A DNA stretch of 34,059 nucleotides, taken from NCBI GenBank assembly GCA_015064745.1, contig SVRR01000022.1, positions 1-34,059 of the forward strand, read 5' to 3'. Under the pieces are notes generated by a model, which was given only the letters and a program-made list of their open reading frames with translations, had not been told where the DNA came from and ran no database searches. Every line of letters starts with the position of its first letter. The stretch's first letter is position 1. The translations under genes and the position numbers were made by a program. This document shows, piece after piece, positions 17,270-34,059 of the stretch. This stretch comes from Oscillospiraceae bacterium (lineage in GTDB: Bacteria; Bacillota; Clostridia; Oscillospirales; CAG-272).

Positions 17270-17298
17270 TTGACATTTGAAAAGCAAGATGTTACAAT
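17270..17298 (+). promoter_or_regulatory. Promoter of the 2-oxoacid dehydrogenase operon
   Basis: TTGACA (17270-17275), 17-base spacer, TACAAT (17293-17298). Start near 17305, 40 bases before the E2 ATG. The 85-base gap to the GH95 promoter is A+T-rich (runs of T and A at 17223-17245), which could act as an UP element. Confidence 0.85.
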
Positions 17299-17344
17299 GA
17301 AATGTGATGAAAAACGTAAAATCCATATTGAAAGGAATGTTAAA

Positions 17345-18691
17345 ATGGCAACTCCAATTATCATGCCCCGTCAGGGACAAAGCGTTGAGTCTTGTATCAT
17401 CACCTCTTGGAACAAAAAGGTGGGCGATACGGTCGAAAAGGGAGATATTCTTTTCTCCTATGAAACCGATAAATCCTCCTTCGATGAGGCAGCTCCCGAA
17501 AGTGGCGTTCTTCTTGCTATCTTCCACGAAGAGGGTGACGACGTCCCCTGCCTTGAGAACGTTTGCGTGATCGGCGCTGCCGGCGAGGACATCTCTGCCT
17601 TTGCTCCCGCAGGCGAGGCTGCTCCCGCGCCTATCGCAGAAGCTGCTCCCGCACAAGAAGCCGCACCTGCCGCCGCGCCCGTAACCGAGGCTGCTCCCGA
17701 AGCAACCGCTGCCGCAAGCGGCGCGATCTCCCCCAGAGCCAAGGCACTGGCGGAAAAGACGGGTGCCGACCTTTTGAAAGCAATCCCCACCGGTCCTAAC
17801 GGACGCATCATCGAGCGCGACGTACAGTCTTTGCTTGACCGTGGCTTGACCGTTTCGGGTGCCGCATCCGCCTCCTACACCGCGCCCGTTGAAGGCACCG
17901 GCGCAAACGGACGTGTCGTTCTTGCCGATCTCACGGCGCCCGCAGCTCCCGCAGCCGCACCTGCCGCAGCAGCTCCCGCAGCTTCCGTCGCAGAGTACGA
18001 GGACGTCAAGATGCCCAACATCCGCAAGATCATCGCAAAGCAGATGTGCGCATCCCTTACGGAAATGGCACAGCTCACCTATAACACCTCCTTTGACGCT
18101 ACTAAGCTTCTTGCGTTCCGCAAGTCGCTCAAAGCAGGTGCCGAGAAGATGGGTCTTGCCAATATCACCCTGAACGACGTTATCCTGTACGCCGTTTCCC
18201 GCGTGCTCAAGTACCCCAAGCACCGTGTGTTTAACGCACACTGTCTTGGAGACACCGTTCGTTACTTCAACAACGTCAATATCGGTATCGCCGTTGATAC
18301 CGAAAGAGGACTTATGGTTCCCACCGTCTTCGGCGCGAACAACATGTCCCTCAATGACATTTCCAAGGAAGCGAAGAGCGTGATCACCGCCGCACAGAGC
18401 GGTAAGATCAGCCCCGACTATCTCACGGGTGCGACCTTCACCGTTTCTAACCTCGGCTCTCTCGGCATCGAGTCCTTTACGCCTATCATCAATCCTCCCC
18501 AGACCGCGATCCTCGGCATTGACTGCGTAAGCAAGCGCATCAAGGAGGTAGATGGTGAGGACGTCGTTTACTCCGCTATGGGTCTTTCTCTCACCGCAGA
18601 CCATCGTGTGATCGACGGTGCGGACGCCGCAAGATTCTTGCAGGACGTCGCTTTTGCACTTGAGAACATCGACCTTTTGATGGCGAAGTAA
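17345..18691 (+). CDS. Dihydrolipoamide acyltransferase (E2) of a 2-oxoacid dehydrogenase complex
   Basis: A 448-residue E2 core protein. The lipoyl domain is residues 1-80 with the lipoylated lysine K43 in ETDKSSFD. An Ala/Pro-rich swinging linker (about 85-125) follows, then the peripheral subunit-binding domain (about 129-165, ISPRAKALAEKTGADLL and PTGPNGRIIERDV). A second GTGANGRVVLADL segment (184-196) looks like a partial copy of that domain's end, which I recall from other clostridial E2 proteins. The catalytic domain (about 218-448) has H420 and D424 in DHRVIDG. The start ATG 17345 has AAAGGA; an earlier frame from 17270 is inside the promoter. Acetyl (pyruvate) is more likely than branched-chain acyl but not proved. 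Codon use is strongly biased, suggesting high expression. Confidence 0.92.
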   Translation: MATPIIMPRQGQSVESCIITSWNKKVGDTVEKGDILFSYETDKSSFDEAAPESGVLLAIFHEEGDDVPCLENVCVIGAAGEDISAFAPAGEAAPAPIAEAAPAQEAAPAAAPVTEAAPEATAAASGAISPRAKALAEKTGADLLKAIPTGPNGRIIERDVQSLLDRGLTVSGAASASYTAPVEGTGANGRVVLADLTAPAAPAAAPAAAAPAASVAEYEDVKMPNIRKIIAKQMCASLTEMAQLTYNTSFDATKLLAFRKSLKAGAEKMGLANITLNDVILYAVSRVLKYPKHRVFNAHCLGDTVRYFNNVNIGIAVDTERGLMVPTVFGANNMSLNDISKEAKSVITAAQSGKISPDYLTGATFTVSNLGSLGIESFTPIINPPQTAILGIDCVSKRIKEVDGEDVVYSAMGLSLTADHRVIDGADAARFLQDVAFALENIDLLMAK

Positions 18692-18707
18692 GAAGGGAAG
18701 TGTCGCA

Positions 18708-20066
18708 ATGTACGATTTGATTATTCTCGGCGGCGGTCCTGCCGGCTACAACGCCGCAGAACGCGCGGGTCACGCAGGTCTTAAAACTCTCGTGATCGAA
18801 GAAAGAGCGCTCGGCGGCGTTTGCCTGAACGAGGGCTGTATCCCCACAAAGACCCTTCTTTATTCCGCGAAGATCTACGATTACGCCAAGCACGGCGCCG
18901 ATTACGGCGTTACCTTCGGCTCTGCCGCCATCGACCACGCCTTCGTCGTAAACCGCAAGAACGGCGTTGTCAAGCAGCTCGTCGCGGGCGTTGGCGCTAA
19001 GATGAAGAAAAGCGGTGTTGAGGTCGTCAAGGCTTCTGCCGTGATCAAGGAAAGAAACGCCGAGGGCTTCGTCGTAACTGCCGAGGGCAAGGATTACGTC
19101 GGTAAGCAGCTTCTCATCGCTACCGGCTCCGCCCCCGCCCTTCCTCCCATCGACGGTCTTGCCGATTCACTGAAAGAGGGCTTTGCGCTCACCAACCGTG
19201 AGGTGCTTGATCTCCCCGCCATTCCGAAGACCATCGTTGTCGTCGGCGGCGGCGTTATCGGCCTTGAAATGGCTTCCTACTTCAACTCTGTCGGCGCTAA
19301 GGTTTACGTCGTTGAGATGATGGACCACATCGCGGGTCCTGTTGACCGTGAGATCTCCGCTCTTCTCCAAAAGGATTACGCCGCACGCGGCGTTGAGTTC
19401 ATCCTCGGCGCTCGTGTGACCTCTATCAAAAATAAGACCGTCACCTACGAGAAGGATGGAAAGACGGTAGAGATCCCCGCAGACTATGCCCTTGTTTCCA
19501 TCGGCAGACGTCCGAGAACGGCAGGCATCGGCTGTGAGAATATCGGGCTCCACCTGGAAAGAGGCGCTATCGTCACGAACGAAATGGGTAAGACCAACGT
19601 TCCCGGCGTTTGGGCGGCAGGCGACGTCAACGGCAAGTCCATGCTGGCGCACACCGCTTATCGCGAGGGTGAGGTTTGTATCAACAATATCCTTGGCAAA
19701 AAGGATAAGGTGAACTACAACTCCATTCCCGCCGTTATCTATACCAACCCCGAGGTTGCCTCCGTCGGCGAGACCACCGAGACCGCCAAGGAAAAGGGTC
19801 TTGATGTAAATATCCAAACGCTGACGTTGAAGTACAGCGGAAGATACATCGCCGAGAACGAGCACGGCTACGGTATCCTCAAGGTCATCACCGACAAGAA
19901 GCACAAAAACATCGTCGGACTGCATATGATCGGCTCCTACGCCTCCGAGATCATTTACGGTGCTGCCATGATGGTAGAGACCGAGATGCGCGTAGAGGAT
20001 ATTCAGAAGATGGTATTCCCCCATCCCACGGTATGCGAGGTCATCCGTGAAGCTATGTTTGAATAA
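18708..20066 (+). CDS. lpdA: Dihydrolipoyl dehydrogenase (E3)
   Basis: A 452-residue flavoprotein disulfide reductase that reoxidises the E2 lipoamide and passes electrons to NAD+. The FAD site is LIILGGGPAGYNAAERAG, the redox pair is C39/C44 in GGVCLNEGCIPTK, the NAD site is VVGGGVIGLEMASYF, a second FAD contact is VWAAGDVNG, and the C-terminal catalytic H439 and E444 are in PHPTVCE. It lacks the N-terminal lipoyl domain that some clostridial E3 proteins carry. It starts 16 bases after the E2 stop behind AGAAGGGAAG and shares its high codon bias. Confidence 0.95.
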   Translation: MYDLIILGGGPAGYNAAERAGHAGLKTLVIEERALGGVCLNEGCIPTKTLLYSAKIYDYAKHGADYGVTFGSAAIDHAFVVNRKNGVVKQLVAGVGAKMKKSGVEVVKASAVIKERNAEGFVVTAEGKDYVGKQLLIATGSAPALPPIDGLADSLKEGFALTNREVLDLPAIPKTIVVVGGGVIGLEMASYFNSVGAKVYVVEMMDHIAGPVDREISALLQKDYAARGVEFILGARVTSIKNKTVTYEKDGKTVEIPADYALVSIGRRPRTAGIGCENIGLHLERGAIVTNEMGKTNVPGVWAAGDVNGKSMLAHTAYREGEVCINNILGKKDKVNYNSIPAVIYTNPEVASVGETTETAKEKGLDVNIQTLTLKYSGRYIAENEHGYGILKVITDKKHKNIVGLHMIGSYASEIIYGAAMMVETEMRVEDIQKMVFPHPTVCEVIREAMFE

Positions 20067-20087
20067 AAATTAAAAGGAGATAGAAAA

Positions 20088-22574
20088 ATGCCGAAAAGTC
20101 AATACGTCGACCCTGCGAAAGCCTTTGACGCAGGCTACATCCATTTTGAGGACATCCCCGTATGTCAGTACAACAAGACCCTTGAAGAAGAGCTTAAGAT
20201 CTACTCCAAGGACGACATGATGCGCATCTATCGCGACATGGCGATCATCCGCGAGTTCGAGACCATGCTCAACGAGGTCAAGGTCAAGAGCTGCTACAAC
20301 TGCGTGGAGTACAACAACCCCGGCCCTGCCCACCTTTCCATCGGTCAGGAGGCTTCCGCTGTCGGTGAAGCGTACTCGCTTGACATCAACGACCTTTCCT
20401 TCGGTTCTCACCGTAGCCACGGCGAGATCCTTGCTAAGGGTCTTTCTTCCATTCATAAGCTCGACGATAAGGAGCTTTACGACATCATGAAGGAGTTTCT
20501 TGACGGTGCGGTTCTTTCCGTCGTTGAGAAGCACATGAACGCAGGCGGCAACGTCAAGGAGCTTGCTATCAACTTCCTGCTCTACGGCGCACTTGCCGAG
20601 ATCTTTGCCCGCAAGACCGGCTTTAACCGCGGTCTCGGCGGATCGATGCACGCCTTCTTCATTCCCTTTGGTCTGATGCCCAACAACGCGATCGTCGGTG
20701 CTTCCGCGCCCATCGCGCTCGGTGCAGCACTCTACAAGCGCTCCAACCACAAGCCCGGTATCGTCATCTCCAACTGCGGTGACGGTGCAACCGGACGCGG
20801 TCCCGTGCTTGAAGCACTCAACTTCGCTTCCATGGACCAGATCACCAAGCTCTGGGGCATGGACGGCAAGTTTGAGGACGGCGGTATGCCTATCCTCTTC
20901 AACGTCTTTAACAACCACTACGGTATGGGCGGTCAGACCCGCGGTGAGACCATGGGTTACGATATGGTTGCACGTCTCGGCGCAGGCTTCAACCCTCAGC
21001 AGATGCACGCGGAGCGTGTTAACGGCTACGATCCTCTCGCTGTCATCGACGCCGTTACCCGCAAGAAGAAGCTCCTGCTTGAAGGCAAGGGTCCCGCACT
21101 TCTTGACGTCGTGACCTACCGTGTATCGGGTCACTCTCCTTCCGATTCCTCTACTTACCGTACGGCAGAAGAGATCGAAGCTTGGAAGGCAGCAGATCCT
21201 ATCCTCGCGTTCAAGACCAAGCTTATCCTCGGCGGTGTTGCTACCGAGAACGAGTTTGCCAAGATCCACGAGGACATCACGGCACGCATGACCGAGGTCA
21301 TGAAGCTCGCGATCAACGATGAGATCTCGCCCAGAATGGACCTCAACAAAGAGCCCGACGCCATTTCTTCCATCATGTTCTCTAACGAGAAGGTGGTTTC
21401 CATGGATCCTTCGCGTGAAGCTGACGTTCTTATGCCCAAGGACGAGTGCCCCCGTGTCAAGGAGATCAAGGGCAAGATCCGCACCGCAAAGGACGCTTCC
21501 GGCAAGCCTGTCTCCAAGATGAAGATGTATAACGTCTGCGACGGTCTCTTTGAGCCTATCATCGATAAGTTCTACGAAGACCCCACCCTTATCGCATACG
21601 GTGAAGATAACCGCGACTGGGGCGGCGCGTTCGGCGTTTACAAGAAGATGACCGAAGCCATCCCCTACCACCGCTTCTTCAACTCGCCTATCTCCGAGTC
21701 CGCTATCGTCGGCTCGGCAGTCGGCTACGCAATGTGCGGCGGCCGTGCTATCGTTGAATTGATGTACGCAGACTTTATCGGCTGTGCCGGCGACGAGATC
21801 TTCAACCAGATGGCAAAATGGCAGTCCATGTCCGCAGGTATCTTGAAGATGCCTATCGTCCTCCGCGTGTCCGTCGGCTCCAAGTACGGCGCACAGCACT
21901 CGCAGGACTGGACGGCACTCTGCTCACACATCCCCGGCTTGAAAGTCGTATTCCCCTCCACGCCTACCGATGCGAAGGGTCTTATGACTACGGCTCTTAG
22001 CGGTACCGACCCCGTCGTCTTCTTCGAGTCGCAGAGAGTTTACGGCTTTGGTGAAGAGTTCCGCAAGGACGGTGTTCCCGAGGGTCACTTTGAGATTCCC
22101 TTCGGTGAGCCCGATATCAAGCGCGAGGGTAAGGACGTTACCATCGTCACCATCGGTGCCGTTCTTTACCGCGCAATGGAAGCGGCAAAGATCCTCGAAG
22201 AGAAGTATGGCATCTCCGCCGAGATCATCGACACGCGCTCCATCGTTCCCTTTAACTATGAGAAGGTGATCGAGTCCGTCAAGAAGACGGGTAAGGTGCT
22301 CTTTGTCGGCGACGCTTGTGAGCGTGCCTCCGTCATGCGCGATATGGCTTCCAACATCACCGAAATGGCATTTGACTATCTTGACGGTCCTCCCGTTGTC
22401 GTTGGCTCCCGCAACTGGATCACGCCTGCTTTCGAGCTTGAAAAGAGCTTCTTCCCGCAGGCAAGCTGGATCATCGACGCTATCGCCGAGAAGATCATGC
22501 CCATTCCCGGTTATGTGCCCGAAACCAACTTCACCGATCTTGAGAAGATCGAGCGCAGCAAGAAGGGCATTTAA
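20088..22574 (+). CDS. 2-oxoacid dehydrogenase E1, alpha and beta subunits fused
   Basis: An 828-residue thiamine-pyrophosphate enzyme that carries E1 alpha (about 1-470) and E1 beta (about 478-828) in one chain. The alpha half has the TPP motif, starting [10 protein letters not shown] (about residue 229) and ending [12 protein letters not shown] (about 271), plus [13 protein letters not shown] and [14 protein letters not shown]. The beta half starts with [19 protein letters not shown] and has [50 protein letters not shown] and the C-terminal [11 protein letters not shown]-like Rossmann part. Usually these are separate PdhA and PdhB genes; fused forms are known in some Clostridia. The complex oxidises pyruvate or another 2-oxoacid and feeds acyl-CoA. 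AAAAGGAGAT precedes ATG 20088, 22 bases after E3. Substrate identity is inferred only. Confidence 0.9.
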
Positions 22575-22590
22575 TTCTAATTTGTAAAGG

Positions 22591-22620
22591 ATTAGGGGCA
22601 TGCGAGAGTATGCCCCTAAT
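22591..22620 (+). terminator. Hairpin between E1 and lipoate ligase genes (attenuator or processing site)
   Basis: Perfect 11-bp stem ATTAGGGGCAT (22591-22601) / ATGCCCCTAAT (22610-22620), loop GCGAGAGT, followed by TTGGGTTTT. It is 17 bases after the E1 stop and 10 bases before the favoured lplA start. The tail is only partly T-rich, so partial termination is expected, giving less ligase than dehydrogenase. Confidence 0.65.
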
Positions 22621-22629
22621 TTGGGTTTT

Positions 22630-23592
22630 ATGAAATATCTTCGTTTACATTCGACCGACCCTTATTACAATCTTGCCGTGGAAGAATATCTTTTGCGACA
22701 CACGCGGGACGATATTTTTATGCTTTGGCAGAATGAACGAACGGTCGTCATTGGAAAAAATCAGAATGCCTATGCCGAGGTCGACCTCGACTATGCGAAA
22801 AAAGAGAATATTCGTGTTTCACGCCGTATTTCGGGTGGCGGTGCCGTCTATCACGATATGGGTAACGTCAATTATACCTTTATTACGTCAAGTGAGCGTG
22901 CAACGGCACTGGATTACGCCTATTTCACACGCCCCATTATCGAGGCGTTAGCCACCCTTGGCGTAAAAGCGGAGCTTTCGGGCAGAAACGACCTTGAATG
23001 CGAGGGAAAAAAGTTTTCCGGCAACGCGCAATATACGGGTGACGGACGCATCCTTCACCACGGCACCCTTCTTTACGATACGGATGCCGATGTCATGTCG
23101 CGCGTTTTGCGTGTCGACAAGGAAAAGCTGGCACACCGCGCCGTAAAATCGCACAAGGGAAGAGTCGGCAACCTTGCCCCTCTCCTTCGCGGCATCACGG
23201 CAGAGGAGTTTATCAAGAGCATCGAAGCGCACGTCTTGAAAACTACGGGTGCCGAACGCATAGAAATCCCCGCGACAGATGTCATAGAGGCTCTTAGAGA
23301 ACGTAACGCTTCGCGCGAGTGGATCCTCTCCGAAAAGCGGTATCTAACCGATTATACCGTGAAGCGTCGCAAGAAGTATCCCTTCGGCATCGTGTGCATC
23401 GAAATGGTGCTCGCAGGGGAAAAGATCGAAAAGGTGTGCATCTGCGGCGACTTTTTTGGCACAAGCCCCGTCGGCGCGCTGGAGGATGCCCTTTGCGGTC
23501 AAACCCTTGACGCGCTTCCCCCCATCGACCCCTCTCCCTATATCGCTGGCATGACAGGGGAAGATCTTCTATCTCTCTTGCTTGAAACCTAA
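22630..23592 (+). CDS. lplA: Lipoate-protein ligase
   Basis: A 320-residue ligase that activates lipoate with ATP and attaches it to the lysine of E2-type domains. The family sequences are LHSTDPYYNLAVEEYLL, RTVVIGKNQNAYAEVD, SRRISGGGAVYHDMGNVNYT, and KFSGNAQYTGDGRILHHGTL, with K after S-H-KGRVGNL. The C-terminal accessory domain (about 240-320) is present. ATG 22630 gives the typical MKYLRLHSTD start, but its ribosome site is weak; ATG 22600 (with AAAGGA 8 bases upstream) lies inside the hairpin stem and would add ten residues. It closes the complex operon, so it probably lipoylates the E2 at 17345; no lipoate synthase is seen in the window. Confidence 0.92.
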   Translation: MKYLRLHSTDPYYNLAVEEYLLRHTRDDIFMLWQNERTVVIGKNQNAYAEVDLDYAKKENIRVSRRISGGGAVYHDMGNVNYTFITSSERATALDYAYFTRPIIEALATLGVKAELSGRNDLECEGKKFSGNAQYTGDGRILHHGTLLYDTDADVMSRVLRVDKEKLAHRAVKSHKGRVGNLAPLLRGITAEEFIKSIEAHVLKTTGAERIEIPATDVIEALRERNASREWILSEKRYLTDYTVKRRKKYPFGIVCIEMVLAGEKIEKVCICGDFFGTSPVGALEDALCGQTLDALPPIDPSPYIAGMTGEDLLSLLLET

Positions 23593-23629
23593 AAGAACGC
23601 AGAGCATTCGCTCTGCGTTCTTCCTTTTT
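23593..23629. terminator. Intrinsic terminator, convergent operons
   Basis: Stem AAGAACGCAGAG (23593-23604) / CTCTGCGTTCTT (23611-23622), loop CATTCG, then CCTTTTT. It serves the lplA side and, with its A-rich left arm, possibly the glycerol-1-phosphate dehydrogenase side. Confidence 0.88.
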
Positions 23630-24896
23630 ATTTCTGCCCAAACAAATCGTAATACATCCAAAGGACGGTGTATCTGTCCTTTAAGTCCTTGGCGTAGAGA
23701 CGGGCGTCTTCAATCTTTTTTTGCCCGTACAAGCCGTCAAACTCGCGCTTATTCAGCCCAACACGGGAAGCAAGCGCCTCCATCTCGTCCGCCGTGGGTG
23801 CATCCGCAAGGATTTTCTTGATCTCGTCCCATTTTTCACGGTAGACGCGCACACGGTCAAGCTCGTACCAACCGAGCTTCTTTTGCAGGGCGAGCACCTC
23901 GTCGGCAACGCCGCCGTAAATGCGGCGGATCTCTGCTTCGTATTTCTCCTTGTCAAAGGAATACGTAAAGCCGTCAAGAGAGGGAAGCGCCAAAAGCTTT
24001 TCGCGCAGGCACGCCGTCTCTATGGCAGAAAAGCAAACGTCGATACCGTGTGGGAGATATTCCTCGTTTCGCTCAATGCCTACGATTTCAAAGTAGTGAG
24101 ACAGATGATGCTCACTGCCCGAAGCGGGACGGGAGTTCCCGACGTAAGCCATGAGAATGCCTACGGCAACGAGTGCCTCCATCAGAGCACCGATAGCGTC
24201 GGGGTCGCACGCGCGAATGCCGTCCGCCAAGCGGACGGTTTTCTCAACCTCCTCCATCGTCGCACCGAGAACGGTGGGGCAGATGTATTCGTCAAGCACG
24301 CAAGCGGCGAGCCGCCAGTCGTTTAAGCAGGCGTATTTACCGATAATATCGCCGTAGCCCGCGCGAATCATCTCTATGGGGGCGTTCGCCAAAACCGACG
24401 TGTCGGCAATAATGGCACGTGGGACAGATGCATTCTTCGTTACCTTCATGCCGTCAAGAATGAGTGCCGAGCCGACCGAGGCGTAGCCGTCCATGGAGGG
24501 AGCAGTCGCCACGATATCGTAGCGAAGCCCGCTTTGAAAGGAGGTGATCTTGCAAAGGTCGTTGATGACACCGGAGCCGACACCAACGATAAGATCGGTC
24601 TTTTCGGTCACTTGTGAAAGTATGGCGTCAATGGCCTTTTCATTCGGAATGAGAATGCTGTCACCGGGAAAGATGAGAGCGTTTTCAATGCGTTTGCCAA
24701 GTCGGAGCATAACACGCTCGCCTGCCGCCGCGTAGGTGTTCTCGTCCGCAACGAGCAGAATATGGCGGTAGCCCTCGGTGATGCGGGAAAGAGACGCAAA
24801 AGCATCTTCTCCAATGATAACGTGTTCTATCGGGCAGACATGCGGCTTGCCGCACGCACAAGGGTCGATTCCCTTTAAAAGCTCCTTGATCTGCAC
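23628..24896 (-). CDS. sn-glycerol-1-phosphate dehydrogenase (AraM/EgsA family)
   Basis: A 422-residue iron-alcohol-dehydrogenase-fold enzyme that reduces dihydroxyacetone phosphate to sn-glycerol-1-phosphate. Family features: IVGVGSGVINDLCK (nucleotide loop), YDIVATAPSMDGYASVGSAL, GYGDIIGKYACLNDW with the metal-binding aspartate, and RPASGSEHHLSHYFE and LPHGIDVC with metal-binding histidines. In Bacillus AraM makes the G1P used for heptaprenylglyceryl phosphate; in some Clostridia the gene accompanies arabinose genes, which are absent here. CACGKPHVCP near residues 13-22 is a cysteine-rich start seen in relatives. It begins at GTG 24896 behind AAGGAG. Length is slightly above the Bacillus enzyme. 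Confidence 0.88.
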   Translation of the reverse strand: MQIKELLKGIDPCACGKPHVCPIEHVIIGEDAFASLSRITEGYRHILLVADENTYAAAGERVMLRLGKRIENALIFPGDSILIPNEKAIDAILSQVTEKTDLIVGVGSGVINDLCKITSFQSGLRYDIVATAPSMDGYASVGSALILDGMKVTKNASVPRAIIADTSVLANAPIEMIRAGYGDIIGKYACLNDWRLAACVLDEYICPTVLGATMEEVEKTVRLADGIRACDPDAIGALMEALVAVGILMAYVGNSRPASGSEHHLSHYFEIVGIERNEEYLPHGIDVCFSAIETACLREKLLALPSLDGFTYSFDKEKYEAEIRRIYGGVADEVLALQKKLGWYELDRVRVYREKWDEIKKILADAPTADEMEALASRVGLNKREFDGLYGQKKIEDARLYAKDLKDRYTVLWMYYDLFGQK

Positions 24897-28973: not shown

Positions 28974-29005
28974 AAAAACTCGATTTCTTTCGAAATCGAG
29001 TTTTT
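28974..29005. terminator. Bidirectional intrinsic terminator
   Basis: Perfect 14-bp stem AAAAACTCGATTTC (28974-28987) / GAAATCGAGTTTTT (28992-29005), loop TTTC. It ends the TasA-like operon on the minus strand and the gene remnant on the plus strand. Confidence 0.92.
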
Positions 29006-29016
29006 TAATTTGAAGA

Positions 29017-30078
29017 TCACTCCGCGGGAATGCCCGCAAGCACCTGCTCAATGGTCGATCCTGCTTTCACGTTGTTGTAGACCTTGGCGCTCTCCCATGT
29101 GTCCGTGTTGAAGGAGTTGTGGCTTCCCCAACCGCCCGAGTAGTTGTTCGAATTTGCGACGCCCTCAAAGAGCTCGCCTCTTTGCTCCCACTCACCCGCG
29201 TCGTTTTGCACGTAGATCGCCGCAAAGACCTGCACCTCGGAGGGACGGAACAAGCTGCCGGAGATCGTTTCGCCCGTCATGTATATAACCATTTCGTCGG
29301 CGCTCGTGCCACCGATATCCTCGCGCTTGATCATGGCGGTAACGTTGGTTTCCGTGCCGTCGCCTTTAATATCAAGCGTCAAAAGATGCTTGCCGTTCAC
29401 GGTAAAGAGCTCGTCGATCGCCCTTGAGTCGGCGTCCGTTGCGCCCGCTACGTTGCCCATATAGGTGTTGTTCGCGCGCCCACCCGCCGTATTGTCCATG
29501 GCGTCTATGAGCTTATTATAGGAAACGGAATCGTTCAGGATAGCACCGAACTGTCCGATCGCGCCCTTGACGGCAATTTCGGGAATATATTCATCGGACG
29601 GAACGAAGGAAAGATTGACGATGGAGTTTAACGTCCTGCTCGACGCAACGCCGCTTTTGTACTTATAGGTCACGTCAAAGCTCGTGGATGCGCCCGCGGA
29701 AAGCGCAACGCCCTTTTTGATCGAGGTCGCCACCGTGATTGCGGTGTTGTCGTAGGTGTCGGGGCCCTCGGTATACGTCAAACCGTTAAAAACGTACGGA
29801 TATTCGGTGTTGTTTTTCACCGTCACACGCAGAATCGTCTGCGCGGACGTGCTCGCGGCAAGAGTTACGGTGCTACCGAGCACAGTGCCTGATTTCGTAA
29901 TGTTCGTTGCGCTTCCGTTCGATACCGTAACGGCGGAAATATAGACGATCTCGGGCACCTTACCCGTACCCTGACCGCTGACGGTCAGCTCGTCGTTAAG
30001 GGCGGCATAGCCTATCCCCAAAAAGGCAGTAGACATAAAAAGGGTGCAAAGGATCATCGCCAAAGCACGAATCTTCAT
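29017..30078 (-). CDS. Large TasA-like secreted protein with SipW-type signal peptide
   Basis: A 353-residue exported protein. The signal peptide (about 1-25) ends FLGIGYAALNDEL, closely parallel to the SipW cleavage region of Bacillus TasA (...WA-AFND), so cleavage before ALND is expected. The same GIGYAALND is present in the small protein at 32862-33365. The mature part begins with a beta-rich domain (VTVSNGSATNITKSG, TLRVTVKNNTEYPYVFNGL-like strands, about 30-170) rich in Thr, Ser and Asn, as in TasA/camelysin folds. A second domain (about 175-353) has SYNKLIDAMDNTAGGRANN, DKGDGTETNV-like and WGSHNSFNTDTW segments that I do not recognise. No LPXTG or membrane anchor is seen. It is last in the operon, separated from the DUF5305-like gene by a GC-rich hairpin. 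Inferred to be a fibre or matrix protein released by the peptidase at 31674. Confidence 0.75.
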   Translation of the reverse strand: MKIRALAMILCTLFMSTAFLGIGYAALNDELTVSGQGTGKVPEIVYISAVTVSNGSATNITKSGTVLGSTVTLAASTSAQTILRVTVKNNTEYPYVFNGLTYTEGPDTYDNTAITVATSIKKGVALSAGASTSFDVTYKYKSGVASSRTLNSIVNLSFVPSDEYIPEIAVKGAIGQFGAILNDSVSYNKLIDAMDNTAGGRANNTYMGNVAGATDADSRAIDELFTVNGKHLLTLDIKGDGTETNVTAMIKREDIGGTSADEMVIYMTGETISGSLFRPSEVQVFAAIYVQNDAGEWEQRGELFEGVANSNNYSGGWGSHNSFNTDTWESAKVYNNVKAGSTIEQVLAGIPAE

Positions 30079-30101
30079 TCCTTTGCACCTCTCTTTCTTT
30101 T

Positions 30102-30128
30102 CCTCGCGAGGGGGTTCCCCTCGCGAGG
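30102..30128 (-). other. GC-rich hairpin between the DUF5305-like and TasA-like genes
   Basis: Perfect 12-bp stem CCTCGCGAGGGG (30102-30113) / CCCCTCGCGAGG (30117-30128), three-base loop. On the transcribed (minus) strand it is followed by AAAAGAAAG, not a T run, so it is not a terminator. It could protect or delimit a processed transcript and let the last gene be expressed at its own level. Confidence 0.7.
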
Positions 30129-30139
30129 TATTCTTTGTT

Positions 30140-31624
30140 TTAGTCTTGCTTGAGTTCTTCCGCGGAAGTTTCCTCTGCGGATGTTTCCTCGATGGGAGTG
30201 TCCTCTACGGGCTCGGATTCGGGAGCGTCCTCCACAGCCTCCGCCTCGGCTTCCTCCTCGGCGTCCGCGATTGTGGGAATTGCCTCTTCTTCCGTTTCTT
30301 CGGTCACTTCCGTTTCGTCGGTTGCTTCGGTTTCCTCGGTCACTTCCGTTTCGTCGGTTGCTTCGGTTTCCTCGGTCACTTCCGTTTCGTCGGTTGCTTC
30401 CGTTTCTTCGGTCACTTCCGTTTCCTCGGTTGCTTCAATTACAGGCTTTGCTTCCTCCTTGTCAGACTTGAAGAAGGCGATGATTCTCTTGAAGAAGGCG
30501 ACGAAGAAGTTGTCGTCCTTTTCGGTACCGAGGATCGCCTCGGGCGTCATACCCGTACCGTAGATATCGTCGTAATCCTCAACGCGGATCTCGTAGCAGT
30601 AAAGGATGCCCATATTCGAGGGGATGACGAAGCTGGTCGCCGTCGCGTCCTCGTTTTCATACATAAGAAGGGGAGAGCCGACGGTGTCGCGCACCTCAAG
30701 CATCTCGTTGAAGTTCTTGATGTAAACGAGTTGATAGCCCTCCTGTGCGAAGGGAGTCGTGATCTCCTGAATAAAGGACTTGTAGCTTGCGATCAAGCGC
30801 TTAACGCGGACCGCGTAGTTGATATCCTCGTTTCTCGTGAAGTAGATAAAGCAAGCAAGGAATGCGGCGCCAAGCACGGAAAGACAGCTGAACACTCCCG
30901 TCAAAACGAGGAAGAGCTTAACGGCGACGCCCGCCTCGCACTCGAGGTATTGCATTGCACTCATCGGAACGCTCGAGGTGGTTTCGGGACGGAAGGTGAG
31001 GTCGATGAGAGGCAGCTTTAAGGTCGATTCATAGGTCTTGGGCATGGAATAGGTGCGATTGCCGACCGTATCGACGCGCATGGTGACCGAAACGTACGCG
31101 TCCACGTTGGTAAGCTTGTATGCGTCAATAAATTCAGCCGCCTGCGCTCTGTATGCGTCGTAGTCGACCGTAACGGTGTTCAAAAGGTGTGTATTACCCT
31201 CTACCGCGGCAGAGGTCGGCACCTTAATGACGTCCACGGGCTGGTAGATCGGCACCTTCGAGGTTCTGTCTGCAACGACGAGGGTGATGGTGACGGACTC
31301 GGTATAGAAATACGTTACGTCGGGCTCGTCCACTGCGATGGTGTAAACGAACTCCGCTTGCACCTCGTCCGTAAGATCGGCGACGTAGGACTGATTCTGG
31401 TTCTGCCACTCGTCAAGATATTCGTTGGGGAAGAGCTTTACCTTGTAGGCAATATTGCTCGTTTCGCTGTAGGAAACGAACAGCGTGTCGTCGAGGGCTC
31501 GGTAAACGATCCCGAACACCGCCGACAGGAGAACAAGCCCGCAAAGGATAAGCGAGAAAATCATAATCCGTTTTTTACGGTTCAGCCTGTATTCCCTTCT
31601 TCGCTTTTTTTCTGCTTCAGACAT
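30140..31624 (-). CDS. DUF5305-like membrane protein with acidic repeat tail
   Basis: A 494-residue bitopic/two-span protein. A strongly basic N-terminus (KKRRREYRLNRKKR) precedes the first membrane segment (about 18-40). An outside domain of about 200 residues follows, with NIAYKVKLFPNEYL near its start, as in DUF5305. A second membrane segment (about 233-265, KLFLVLTGVFSCLSVLGAAF) leads to an inside domain (about 266-390). Residues about 400-445 are a tandem repeat of ATDETEVTEETE, encoded by 36-base DNA repeats at 30301-30435, and the end is rich in E, A and S. DUF5305 proteins are found next to signal peptidases in Archaea and Bacillota; their role is unknown. The place between the peptidase and the large substrate suggests a part in export or assembly. 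ATG 31624 has AAAGGA. Confidence 0.7.
   Translation of the reverse strand: MSEAEKKRRREYRLNRKKRIMIFSLILCGLVLLSAVFGIVYRALDDTLFVSYSETSNIAYKVKLFPNEYLDEWQNQNQSYVADLTDEVQAEFVYTIAVDEPDVTYFYTESVTITLVVADRTSKVPIYQPVDVIKVPTSAAVEGNTHLLNTVTVDYDAYRAQAAEFIDAYKLTNVDAYVSVTMRVDTVGNRTYSMPKTYESTLKLPLIDLTFRPETTSSVPMSAMQYLECEAGVAVKLFLVLTGVFSCLSVLGAAFLACFIYFTRNEDINYAVRVKRLIASYKSFIQEITTPFAQEGYQLVYIKNFNEMLEVRDTVGSPLLMYENEDATATSFVIPSNMGILYCYEIRVEDYDDIYGTGMTPEAILGTEKDDNFFVAFFKRIIAFFKSDKEEAKPVIEATEETEVTEETEATDETEVTEETEATDETEVTEETEATDETEVTEETEEEAIPTIADAEEEAEAEAVEDAPESEPVEDTPIEETSAEETSAEELKQD
30301..30435 (-). repeat. 36-bp tandem repeat inside the DUF5305-like gene
   Basis: About 3.7 copies: 30301-30336, 30337-30372, 30373-30408 and a partial copy 30409-30435. 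Copies 1 and 2 are identical; copy 3 has two changes. The period of 36 keeps the frame and encodes twelve residues, so copy number change by slippage would alter tail length without breaking the gene. Confidence 0.92.
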
Positions 31625-31673
31625 GATATAGTCCTTTCTGTGAAAAAACCAAAAATTTTTCTCGGAATTTACT

Positions 31674-32804
31674 TTAATTAAACAGCCCTCTTAACCAAAG
31701 GGTGGGATAGCCGAAATAAGGTATTTTACCCTTCACGACGCCGATAATGTCGGCGTCGGTAGTATAGCCGCTATCGAGGTAATCGTTTGCGTCACCTTGG
31801 GTAAAATAACGATTGCGCCCGTTGACACGGGAAATATCGACGATGCGATGCACTGTCACACGGTCGTTGTGGTAGAAGACGATGACGTCCTGCTCGTCCA
31901 CAAATTGCCCTGTATATTCCTCAAAGATGACAGCGTCGCCCTTGTTGATCGAGCCCGTCATGCTATCGGTCGCAATGATGAGAAGTCCGAAGCGAAATTC
32001 GTTGGAGATCAGCATCATAAAGGAAGTAACGAAGATCAGCGCCGACACGACCATGGCGTACAGCCATTTTCCCGCACGGCGCTTCTCGGTCGTTTTGACA
32101 GTTTTTCCGTAAAGCAGACGCAAAAGGAAGAGGAGCGCAGGGGGCAAAAGAATGGAAACAAATGAGGAAAGAGAATCAGGCATGCCCGATCGGATGGGGA
32201 TAAGAAAGGGAGCAAGAGAGGTCACAAGGCGGAAGCTGATGGCAGGCCAAACACCGTAGTGCTTTCCCGTATATTGATAAAGAGGTTGTGCGGCAAGCGC
32301 GGGCAAAAGCGTCGCGCCCATAAGGTCCATAAAGTGATAAAAGTTCGTCACCGCGGAAAAGGAAGTGACGAGTAGCACCTCGGAAAGAGTACCGATAACG
32401 TACGCCACCGAGCGAGCGAAAAATCCCTTTTGACCGAGAAAGGCACATCTCGTGATTTCGATCGAAATAACCGTAATGGTAATGGGAAGAATATACGATA
32501 AAAGGGAACGAAAAGAAAATGCTACATCGGCAAGAAAGAAGCCGAAATGAAGTCCCGAAAGAAGACACAGCGCCGTGTACAGCACGGCGACGAGAAGGGT
32601 AACGAAGAGCACGGCGCGTCTATGCACCGAGGAAAAGGGCATCTTCTTAAGATAAAGGAAGGCGAAAAAGGCAAAAACAGGGGTGATCGCCGCAACGGCG
32701 TAGCGCGCGGCATTGCGAGAGAGAAGGCATAGGACAAGGAAGAGAAGAAGGCATAGAGAGATACCGATCACGAACGGTCGTCGGTCGAGCACGGGGCGTC
32801 TCAT
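31674..32804 (-). CDS. Signal peptidase I, ER/SipW type, with large N-terminal membrane domain
   Basis: A 376-residue protein whose last ~120 residues are a signal peptidase of the S26B (SipW/SEC11) type. S281 in ATDSMTGSINKGD is the nucleophile. H319 in VTVHRIV stands where bacterial-type enzymes have lysine, the mark of the ER type. TQGDANDYLDSGYT holds the third conserved segment (aspartate), then GVVKGKIPYFGY. Residues 1-270 form about six to eight membrane segments; SipW of Bacillus is only about 190 residues with two spans, so this extension is unusual. It probably cleaves the GIGYA-ALND signals of the two neighbouring secreted proteins. ATG 32804 has GGAGAAAGGA. The 57 bases to the gene before it contain no terminator. 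Confidence 0.88.
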   Translation of the reverse strand: MRRPVLDRRPFVIGISLCLLLFLVLCLLSRNAARYAVAAITPVFAFFAFLYLKKMPFSSVHRRAVLFVTLLVAVLYTALCLLSGLHFGFFLADVAFSFRSLLSYILPITITVISIEITRCAFLGQKGFFARSVAYVIGTLSEVLLVTSFSAVTNFYHFMDLMGATLLPALAAQPLYQYTGKHYGVWPAISFRLVTSLAPFLIPIRSGMPDSLSSFVSILLPPALLFLLRLLYGKTVKTTEKRRAGKWLYAMVVSALIFVTSFMMLISNEFRFGLLIIATDSMTGSINKGDAVIFEEYTGQFVDEQDVIVFYHNDRVTVHRIVDISRVNGRNRYFTQGDANDYLDSGYTTDADIIGVVKGKIPYFGYPTLWLRGLFN

Positions 32805-32861
32805 ATTCCTTTCTCCTTTCCTTGTCCTCAGCGCGATCGTGCGCCGCGTTACGGGGTGAAA

Positions 32862-33365
32862 TTAGCCTGCAGAGGATACGTTGAAACTAATGCCGAAGCT
32901 CTCTGCTTCATCAAAGTCAGCTGCAACGGTCTGCTTGAGGACGATCTTGATAACAACCTCGATCTCAGCGCCGGCTGCGATGCTGTTACCCGAGGGGTAC
33001 TCAGCGGTCACACGGAAGTGGTCAGAGTCCTGAGAGGTGTTGGTCACGATGGTCGCGGGAACGGCGGAATCGTTCTTCACAGTCACGGTACAGGTCGCCG
33101 TATCACCAACGATTGCGAGGGTGTCGTCAATGGTGACATTAACGGTATCGGGCTTTTCGCCTGTGACAAACTCAGCCGTACAATTCACAACAGAGGGCGT
33201 GCCGGTGTAGTAGACTTCTCCGTCGAACGCGTCATCGGCCGCACTCTTGGTAAGGATACCGCTACCGTTTGCGTGGAGCGCGTCATTGAGGGCTGCGTAA
33301 CCGATACCCATAGTGACGACGGTCACGAGAGTGAGGGCGAGAATTGCAAGTCTTCTTGCTTTCAT
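32862..33365 (-). CDS. Small TasA/camelysin-like secreted protein with SipW-type signal peptide
   Basis: A 167-residue exported protein. The signal peptide MKARRLAILALTLVTVVTMG ends GIGYAALNDAL, the same cleavage region as in the large protein at 29017-30078. The mature part has an immunoglobulin-like beta pattern: ATCTVTVKNDSAVPATIVTN and AGAEIEVVIKIVLKQTV, as in TasA/camelysin and DUF11-like folds. It is acidic and rich in Thr, Ser and Val, with C-terminal SFNVSSAG and no anchor. As first gene of the operon, immediately after the long leader and a GGAGAAAA ribosome site, it is likely the most abundant product. Role inferred as a fibre or matrix subunit. Confidence 0.78.
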   Translation of the reverse strand: MKARRLAILALTLVTVVTMGIGYAALNDALHANGSGILTKSAADDAFDGEVYYTGTPSVVNCTAEFVTGEKPDTVNVTIDDTLAIVGDTATCTVTVKNDSAVPATIVTNTSQDSDHFRVTAEYPSGNSIAAGAEIEVVIKIVLKQTVAADFDEAESFGISFNVSSAG

Positions 33366-33526: not shown

Positions 33527-33555
33527 ATTATAACATAAAGCAAACGCTTTGTCAA
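33527..33555 (-). promoter_or_regulatory. Promoter of the TasA/SipW-like operon
   Basis: On the minus strand TTGACA (33555-33550), 17-base spacer, TATAAT (33532-33527): a perfect consensus. Such a strong promoter suggests that a repressor or the leader controls the operon. Confidence 0.87.
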
Positions 33556-34011: not shown

Positions 34012-34059
34012 ATGGATCAATTGAAGATGGGAAGATTTATCGCCGAGTGCAGAAAGCAG
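34012..34059 (+). CDS. XRE-family helix-turn-helix regulator (N-terminus only, cut by window end)
   Basis: ATG 34012 follows AAAGGAGG (33999-34006 region) and gives MDQLKMGRFIAECRKQ before the window ends. This is the usual first helix of clostridial XRE/Cro-C1 regulators (MDQ-x-K-x-G-x-F-I-A-x-x-R-K-x-x-x-x-T-Q). Nothing after it can be seen. It is transcribed away from the TasA/SipW-like operon, with a gene remnant between them. Confidence 0.75.
   Translation, partial: MDQLKMGRFIAECRKQ

Follow-up and report, generated by a model that had tools for sequence, protein, structure and literature searches.

The system described here is a block of four genes on the minus strand of a 34,059-nucleotide contig from an Oscillospiraceae bacterium (SVRR01000022.1, assembly GCA_015064745.1); this whole stretch is referred to as the window. 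An earlier note made from the sequence alone had described the block as a clostridial secretion operon of the TasA/SipW kind, and the four open reading frames were indeed found at the coordinates it gave, all on the minus strand. In order of transcription they encode S, a small secreted protein of 167 residues with a predicted signal peptide (residues 1-24) and one beta-sandwich domain (32862..33365); P, an endoplasmic reticulum (ER)-type signal peptidase of 376 residues (31674..32804); D, a DUF5305 membrane protein of 494 residues (30140..31624); and T, a large secreted protein of 353 residues with an S-like N-terminal domain followed by a C-terminal module (29017..30078). The identities of the two proteins encoded between S and T were borne out by family models, as P scored 59.5 bits against TIGR02228 (cut-off 51.85) and D scored 31.8 bits against PF17231 (cut-off 29; residues 132-334). 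The motif GIGYAALND, said to close the signal peptides of both secreted proteins, was present at that place in S and T. Loci and genomes are given as L and G numbers where they need to be told apart.

The strong promoter that had been claimed ahead of the block corresponds to a sigma-70-type site upstream of S (33527..33555, minus strand), which matches the −35/−10 consensus at 12/12 positions with a spacer of 17 and an extended TG before the −10; promoter-like sites are not generally rare in the window, with 9 found against 5.6 expected in shuffles. A terminator-like hairpin of 14 pairs with a T-rich tail lies just 3′ of T (28974..29005, minus strand), and a single transcript covering S, P, D and T is likely. 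A second hairpin, GC-rich and of 12 pairs, occupies the gap between D and T (30102..30128) and has no T-run after it on the mRNA strand. It was considered as a conserved expression device and rejected, since most other D-T gaps are short with weak folds, the strongest other folds among the loci compared being those of L045 and L055.

The earlier note had proposed the co-occurrence of the four families in other genomes as a check, and such co-occurrence was found. A search of 117 related genomes with D matched 25, of which G108 and G081 were discarded as matching the acidic tail only, leaving 23 including the window's own; among 295 genomes of the order, a Pfam search gave 7 with a match, 5 of them over the cut-off. 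The order S-P-D-T was observed in 24 of the 26 related loci, a count that includes one locus with two S genes and one with two T genes, while at L040 the contig stops within D. A scan of named genome contigs gave 29 loci, 9 of them already known and 20 new, and 17 of the new loci again had the order S-P-D-T. The incomplete ones were L171 and L177, which start or finish at a contig end, and L180, which comprises D and T with no S or P found. The titles of the scanned records name uncultured Clostridia, Oscillospiraceae or Eubacteriales, with deer, goat or sheep gut in 17 of the 29. Outside this family, G071 contributed two further loci with P and D, one of them preceded by a secreted protein. 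The recurrence of the same order in both sets of loci argues that the block is not due to chance, and since the flanks differ between loci (the most frequent flanking family occurs in 4/26 of them), the four genes are taken to form a unit. No plasmid copy of DUF5305 was matched with a single D protein as query. Literature searches on TasA/SipW with archaea, Clostridia, sortase or camelysin gave no account of the four-gene block, although these searches mostly did not extend to subscription papers.

Two observations concern the surroundings of S. At the edge of the window (34012-34059) a divergent gene begins that resembles, by eye, a helix-turn-helix regulator and is cut by the window end. In three other loci, a response regulator and a protein that by eye is sensor-like immediately precede S and share its strand (L046:8415-10483, L048:10895-12963 and L058:5047-7691), and this pair is a possible control system.

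The relationship between the two secreted proteins was assessed by hhalign of their profiles, which gave 98.8% over 164 columns, and T accordingly consists of a domain homologous to S joined to a C-terminal module. This module is variable: among 26 T proteins, Flg_new repeats were found in 3, a BgaA-like carbohydrate-binding module (PF21606) in 2 and an LRR_5 region in 1, while a YIGNV-like motif was matched by pattern in 18. Neither S nor T reached any Pfam cut-off. Weak beta-sandwich matches were obtained for S (Cep192_D3, E 0.0012; ASH, E 0.0049) and none for T, and no toxin family was among the matches of either. A C-terminal transmembrane segment was predicted in 0/26 S and 0/26 T, and an LPxTG-like end in 1/26 S and 0/26 T. 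A sortase-built pilus was ruled out on these grounds, with LPxTG-type ends nearly absent and C-terminal transmembrane segments in 0/52. The AlphaFold2 model of S (mean predicted local distance difference test score 87.5) consists of the signal helix (residues 2-21) and a sandwich of eight strands (51-165), and residues 22-39 between them have no secondary structure and low confidence (block means 58 and 68). An unstructured N-terminus beside an eight-stranded sandwich would, on this model, be as expected of a subunit awaiting a strand.

After the predicted cleavage between GYA and A, both proteins open with L2-x-D4-x-L6-x-V8-x-G10-x-A12, in which most even positions are hydrophobic or small. 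These segments are the proposed donor strands, namely residues 25-38 of S (ALNDALHANGSGIL; 33252..33293, minus strand) and residues 26-39 of T (ALNDELTVSGQGTG; 29962..30003, minus strand). If such a strand is inserted into a neighbor of the same fiber, its inward face would be expected to be common to the S and T of any given genome. Over the first 14 mature residues in 24 genomes, the S-T match was 0.479 within genomes and 0.344 between them (0/10,000 permutations). This was replicated in 17 separate genomes under a stricter cut rule (0.454 within, 0.302 between; 0/20,000 permutations), where the signal peptide had no excess (0.266 in both cases, p 0.53). In the pooled 41 genomes, the same-genome match was 46.9%, and the excess averaged 0.217 for the even positions and 0.069 for the odd ones, being largest at +8 (0.42), +4 (0.32) and +12 (0.27) with none at +1. 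Furthermore, S matched the T encoded beside it more closely (0.469) than the T of whichever genome had the most similar S (0.395). The within-genome excess mainly occupies one strand face, without being wholly confined to the strand.

The 24-genome values supersede a first run on 17 genomes (0.445 against 0.320), in which a cut was lacking for 8/26 T proteins and wrongly placed for one T. The co-variation tests excluded L037 for want of an S and L040 for want of a T, together with the extra S of L045, the extra T of L046 and those three newly scanned loci in which the block is incomplete. Several proteins were placed by hand rather than by best phmmer hit: the S of L046, the T of L043, L060 and L051 (where S had been hit instead) and both D of G071. 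The D hit of L063 was dropped as low-complexity.

A link from S to solved fiber subunits was obtained through A7, an alignment of 17 secreted proteins encoded in DUF5305 clusters of other members of the phylum. The S profile matched the A7 profile at 98.4% over 166 columns, and the A7 profile in turn matched, in the PDB, AbpX (9sj2, E 8.2e-15; 9rhp, E 3.1e-9) and the entries 8aur (E 4.4e-5) and 5of1 (E 4.6e-5). AbpX is presumably, from its name, the ABPx fiber of Pyrodictium abyssi. The alignment with AbpX opens at chain residue 2 with WSETLSLSATISTG, and the same letters, WSETLSLSATISTG, stand at the C-terminal end of the 9rhp chain; 9rhp would therefore seem to be a construct in which the donor strand was relocated to complete its own fold. 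The strand lies outside the alignments with 8aur and 5of1, which start farther along. One sister-cluster substrate, that of L126, was exactly at the PF12389 cut-off as printed, 22.5 bits. The entries 8aur ("major biofilm matrix component") and 5of1 ("spore coat-associated protein N") were assigned to TasA from these names together with PMC9674648 and PMC13082335. TasA polymerizes via an N-terminal donor strand (PMC9674648) and ABPx is likewise a donor-strand fiber (PMC11952670). TasA residues P3 to P4′ hinder the ordinary Escherichia coli signal peptidase (PMC10269814).

The assignment of P to the archaeal/ER type of signal peptidase is consistent with its catalytic residues S281, H319, D338 and D344, which were kept in 28/28 sequences and provide Ser-His-Asp instead of Ser-Lys. 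In Pfam, P came just short of the cut-offs for S24 and S26, and it also fell below that of the Bacillus SipW equivalog NF046067 (38.6 against 190 bits). Residues 1-245 of P (32070..32804, minus strand) form a polytopic N-terminal membrane domain with invariant E116, R119 and P168, for which no Pfam match was obtained in P itself or in four relatives. When P was used as query, 50 of the 117 relatives were matched, and matches extending into the membrane half were limited to G071 and the 23 genomes that have D; the remaining matches begin at residue 234 or later.

This pairing was also seen across the phylum, where PF17231 was found in 37/398 genomes from 30/267 genera, 32 of them over the cut-off. 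At 31 DUF5305 loci outside the window's own, an ER-type peptidase was matched within 4 kb and in the same orientation in 26, and 21 of those had the polytopic domain; a simple pattern picked out one or more secreted proteins with a SipW-like signal end in 21/31. The five loci with no peptidase match within 4 kb were L126, L136, L138, L148 and L152, and in the genome of L126 the polytopic domain lies about 5 kb from D. The polytopic domain itself was found in 27/398 genomes. After G732 was set aside as marginal and with internal stops, 25 of the remaining 26 had DUF5305 over the cut-off, so that both were present in 25 genomes, only the domain in 1 and only DUF5305 in 7 (Fisher p 2.9e-32). Since 11/14 rows of the domain query (A6) came from the same 398-genome sample, its strong scores are partly so by construction; this overlap does not account for its finding just one genome without DUF5305. 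The polytopic half of P therefore almost never occurs without DUF5305, and the converse is weaker (7/32 DUF5305 genomes lack the domain). Pairwise distance correlations over 23 loci were highest for P-D (r 0.55) and S-T (0.55), with the cross pairs at 0.33-0.42.

By hydropathy, D has two transmembrane segments, an ectodomain of about 190 residues, a conserved cytosolic part and an acidic, low-complexity C-terminal tail of TEVTEETEATDE repeats (30143..30529, minus strand). This tail is very variable in length among relatives, in which the full-length D protein has anything from 352 to 1150 residues. A PDB search with the D profile gave no convincing match (best E 0.23), and no paper was found under the name DUF5305 in the literature search. 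The family is common in archaea. It was found in 0/14 control genomes, a set for which the membership of Bacillus subtilis was not established; B. subtilis is not known to have DUF5305. D had been put forward in the earlier note as an assembly or export factor. It may act as one, and a role in a processing complex is at least as likely because the tightest tie of D is to the polytopic membrane domain of P. The membrane half of P and D are therefore proposed to form, together, a membrane unit for processing and hand-over.

Some further features of DUF5305 clusters were noted. In clusters of other families, a sortase-like gene with a TLTTC motif can be present (L139:5206-5865 and L145:8463-9089), and L123 and L130 have genes similar to these by eye; none was seen beside the operon of the window. 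Several SipW-type substrates, most of them starting W-x-E/D, stand side by side in L126 (2780-6345), L127 and L141, which suggests multi-subunit fibers at these loci.

Taken together, the operon is proposed to encode a surface fiber of the TasA/AbpX kind built by donor-strand exchange, with S as the main subunit and T as a modular co-subunit, and this reading is given a probability of roughly 0.7. S and T would be exported by Sec with their unusual signal peptides, and cleavage by P would free the N-terminal beta-strand of each. A dedicated ER-type peptidase fits this step because residues P3 to P4′ of TasA hinder the ordinary E. coli enzyme, as cited above. The freed strand would then be inserted into the subunit that follows, whose beta-sandwich is incomplete. 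S, as the first gene product and a single domain, would be the main subunit, and T presumably joins the same fiber as an end piece or decoration whose module adds a binding function. The polytopic half of P and D, together in the membrane, may couple cleavage to the hand-over of subunits or to their anchoring, the job of D being the least certain step of the mechanism.

Several data weigh against this proposal. The clostridial fiber or matrix system of the earlier note was well supported by comparative data, namely the co-occurrence, the profile link to TasA and AbpX and the co-varying N-termini; on the other side, neither S nor T matched the TasA/camelysin family PF12389. The S profile alone retrieved no TasA or AbpX from the PDB at E up to 1, so the homology of S to subunits of this type is at the profile level and transitive through the sister-cluster substrates rather than direct. 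The best PDB matches of the two proteins' own profiles were a C5a peptidase domain for S (E 0.037) and none for T, none of these being convincing. No S was found at L037. The co-variation also reached beyond one strand face: the odd strand positions were above chance (p 0.0002), domain columns 10-23, four of which lie in the strand, were in excess in 24 genomes (0.245 against 0.169, 0/10,000 permutations), and so were columns 20-33 (p 0.044), 90-103 (p 0.011) and 100-113 (p 0.024). For the rest of the domain in the 24 genomes, the values were 0.161 and 0.151 (p 0.045), and for the signal peptide 0.287 and 0.267 (p 0.055 in 24 genomes, p 0.019 in a reduced set of 22). Gene conversion may be a source of this likeness between S and T, though it would be expected to spread further. 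Finally, the N-termini of precursor models are often floppy in any case.

The same N-terminal likeness could arise if S and T were soluble or wall-associated binding proteins that form no fiber, the shared N-terminus being the recognition site of the peptidase only. The effect of TasA residues P3 to P4′ on the peptidase (PMC10269814) indicates that the early mature region can be a part of such recognition, and the binding-like modules in the T proteins of relatives (PF21606, LRR_5 and Flg_new, counted above) would suit this role. Recognition would, however, be expected to place the excess nearest the cut, and instead it was absent at +1, peaked at +8, +4 and +12 and lay mainly on one face; the AbpX chain, moreover, opens with the same kind of motif. 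This explanation was therefore deemed quite improbable. A different role for D, as a membrane anchor or base that donates the first strand in the way TapA is thought to do for TasA, was judged unlikely, if slightly less so. After its first transmembrane segment D reads ALDDTLFVSYSE, which resembles the ALNDELTVSG of T in the window, and with neither C-terminal transmembrane segments nor, in nearly all cases, LPxTG-like ends on S and T, something else must hold the fiber. This segment of D, however, did not co-vary with either S (p 0.19) or T (p 0.75) in 39 genomes, a weak negative given that several cuts in S, T and D had been set at the wrong place, and the stretch after the first transmembrane segment differs in the other DUF5305 clusters examined. 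A secretion-stress or toxin-delivery cassette unrelated to fibers would be hard to reconcile with substrates that are homologous, at the profile level, to structural fiber subunits; the matches of S and T include no toxin family and no positive support was found, making this explanation extremely improbable.

The proposed donor-strand fiber has parallels in known systems. In B. subtilis tapA-sipW-tasA, a dedicated ER-type signal peptidase likewise adjoins its secreted substrates, and TasA, with its N-terminal donor strand (PMC9674648), was matched by the sister-cluster profile. The claim that gene order and content differ from Bacillus was upheld: the order here is S-P-D-T, P has an extra polytopic half of about 245 residues, a DUF5305 gene is present, S and T are below PF12389, and the unit has no fifth gene, although no search aimed at TapA was made. 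AbpX is the best solved match of the sister-cluster substrates and has a W/L-x-E/D-x-L-x-L/V strand at its chain start; it differs in being archaeal and in being reached only via those substrates and not from S directly. Clostridium perfringens sipW-bsaABCRSD also combines a clostridial SipW with secreted subunits, of which BsaA forms filaments and requires SipW (PMC7395162). There, sipW comes first and a two-component system is part of the operon, and DUF5305 or a polytopic peptidase is unmentioned in the available part of that paper. In Bacillus cereus, with sipW-tasA, calY and capP, two SipW-processed subunits co-polymerize (PMC13082335), as is proposed for S and T. This system differs in its secreted, chaperone-like CapP and in the transcription of calY and capP separately from sipW-tasA, and the accessible text does not mention DUF5305 (PMC13082335).

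Elsewhere in the window, two further features were recognized by eye. A gene at 23628-24896 resembles glycerol-1-phosphate dehydrogenase, an enzyme of the archaeal-lipid type, and a 2-oxoacid dehydrogenase cluster at 17270-23592 comprises an apparently fused E1 alpha-beta of 828 residues, E2, E3 and a lipoate ligase.

The eukaryotic ER signal peptidase is a complex with accessory subunits, and the layout of DUF5305 with the polytopic domain can be likened to it. It is tentatively suggested, as a possibility that we regard as doubtful, that the two constitute a phylum-wide bacterial multi-subunit ER-type signal peptidase which, besides cleaving, loads freed subunits onto a growing donor-strand fiber. 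If true, this would be a fiber assembly platform for single-membrane cells, where the usher is absent. In either case, DUF5305 gains a context and a testable role, and such clusters are widespread in the phylum sample. A way to recognize donor-strand partners from sequence alone is also offered, namely paralogous N-termini that co-vary within genomes, for the most part on a single face of the strand. The operon makes directly testable how donor-strand fibers are nucleated and held without an outer membrane. In the deer, goat or sheep gut, which 17 of the 29 scanned records name in their titles, surface fibers may serve attachment.

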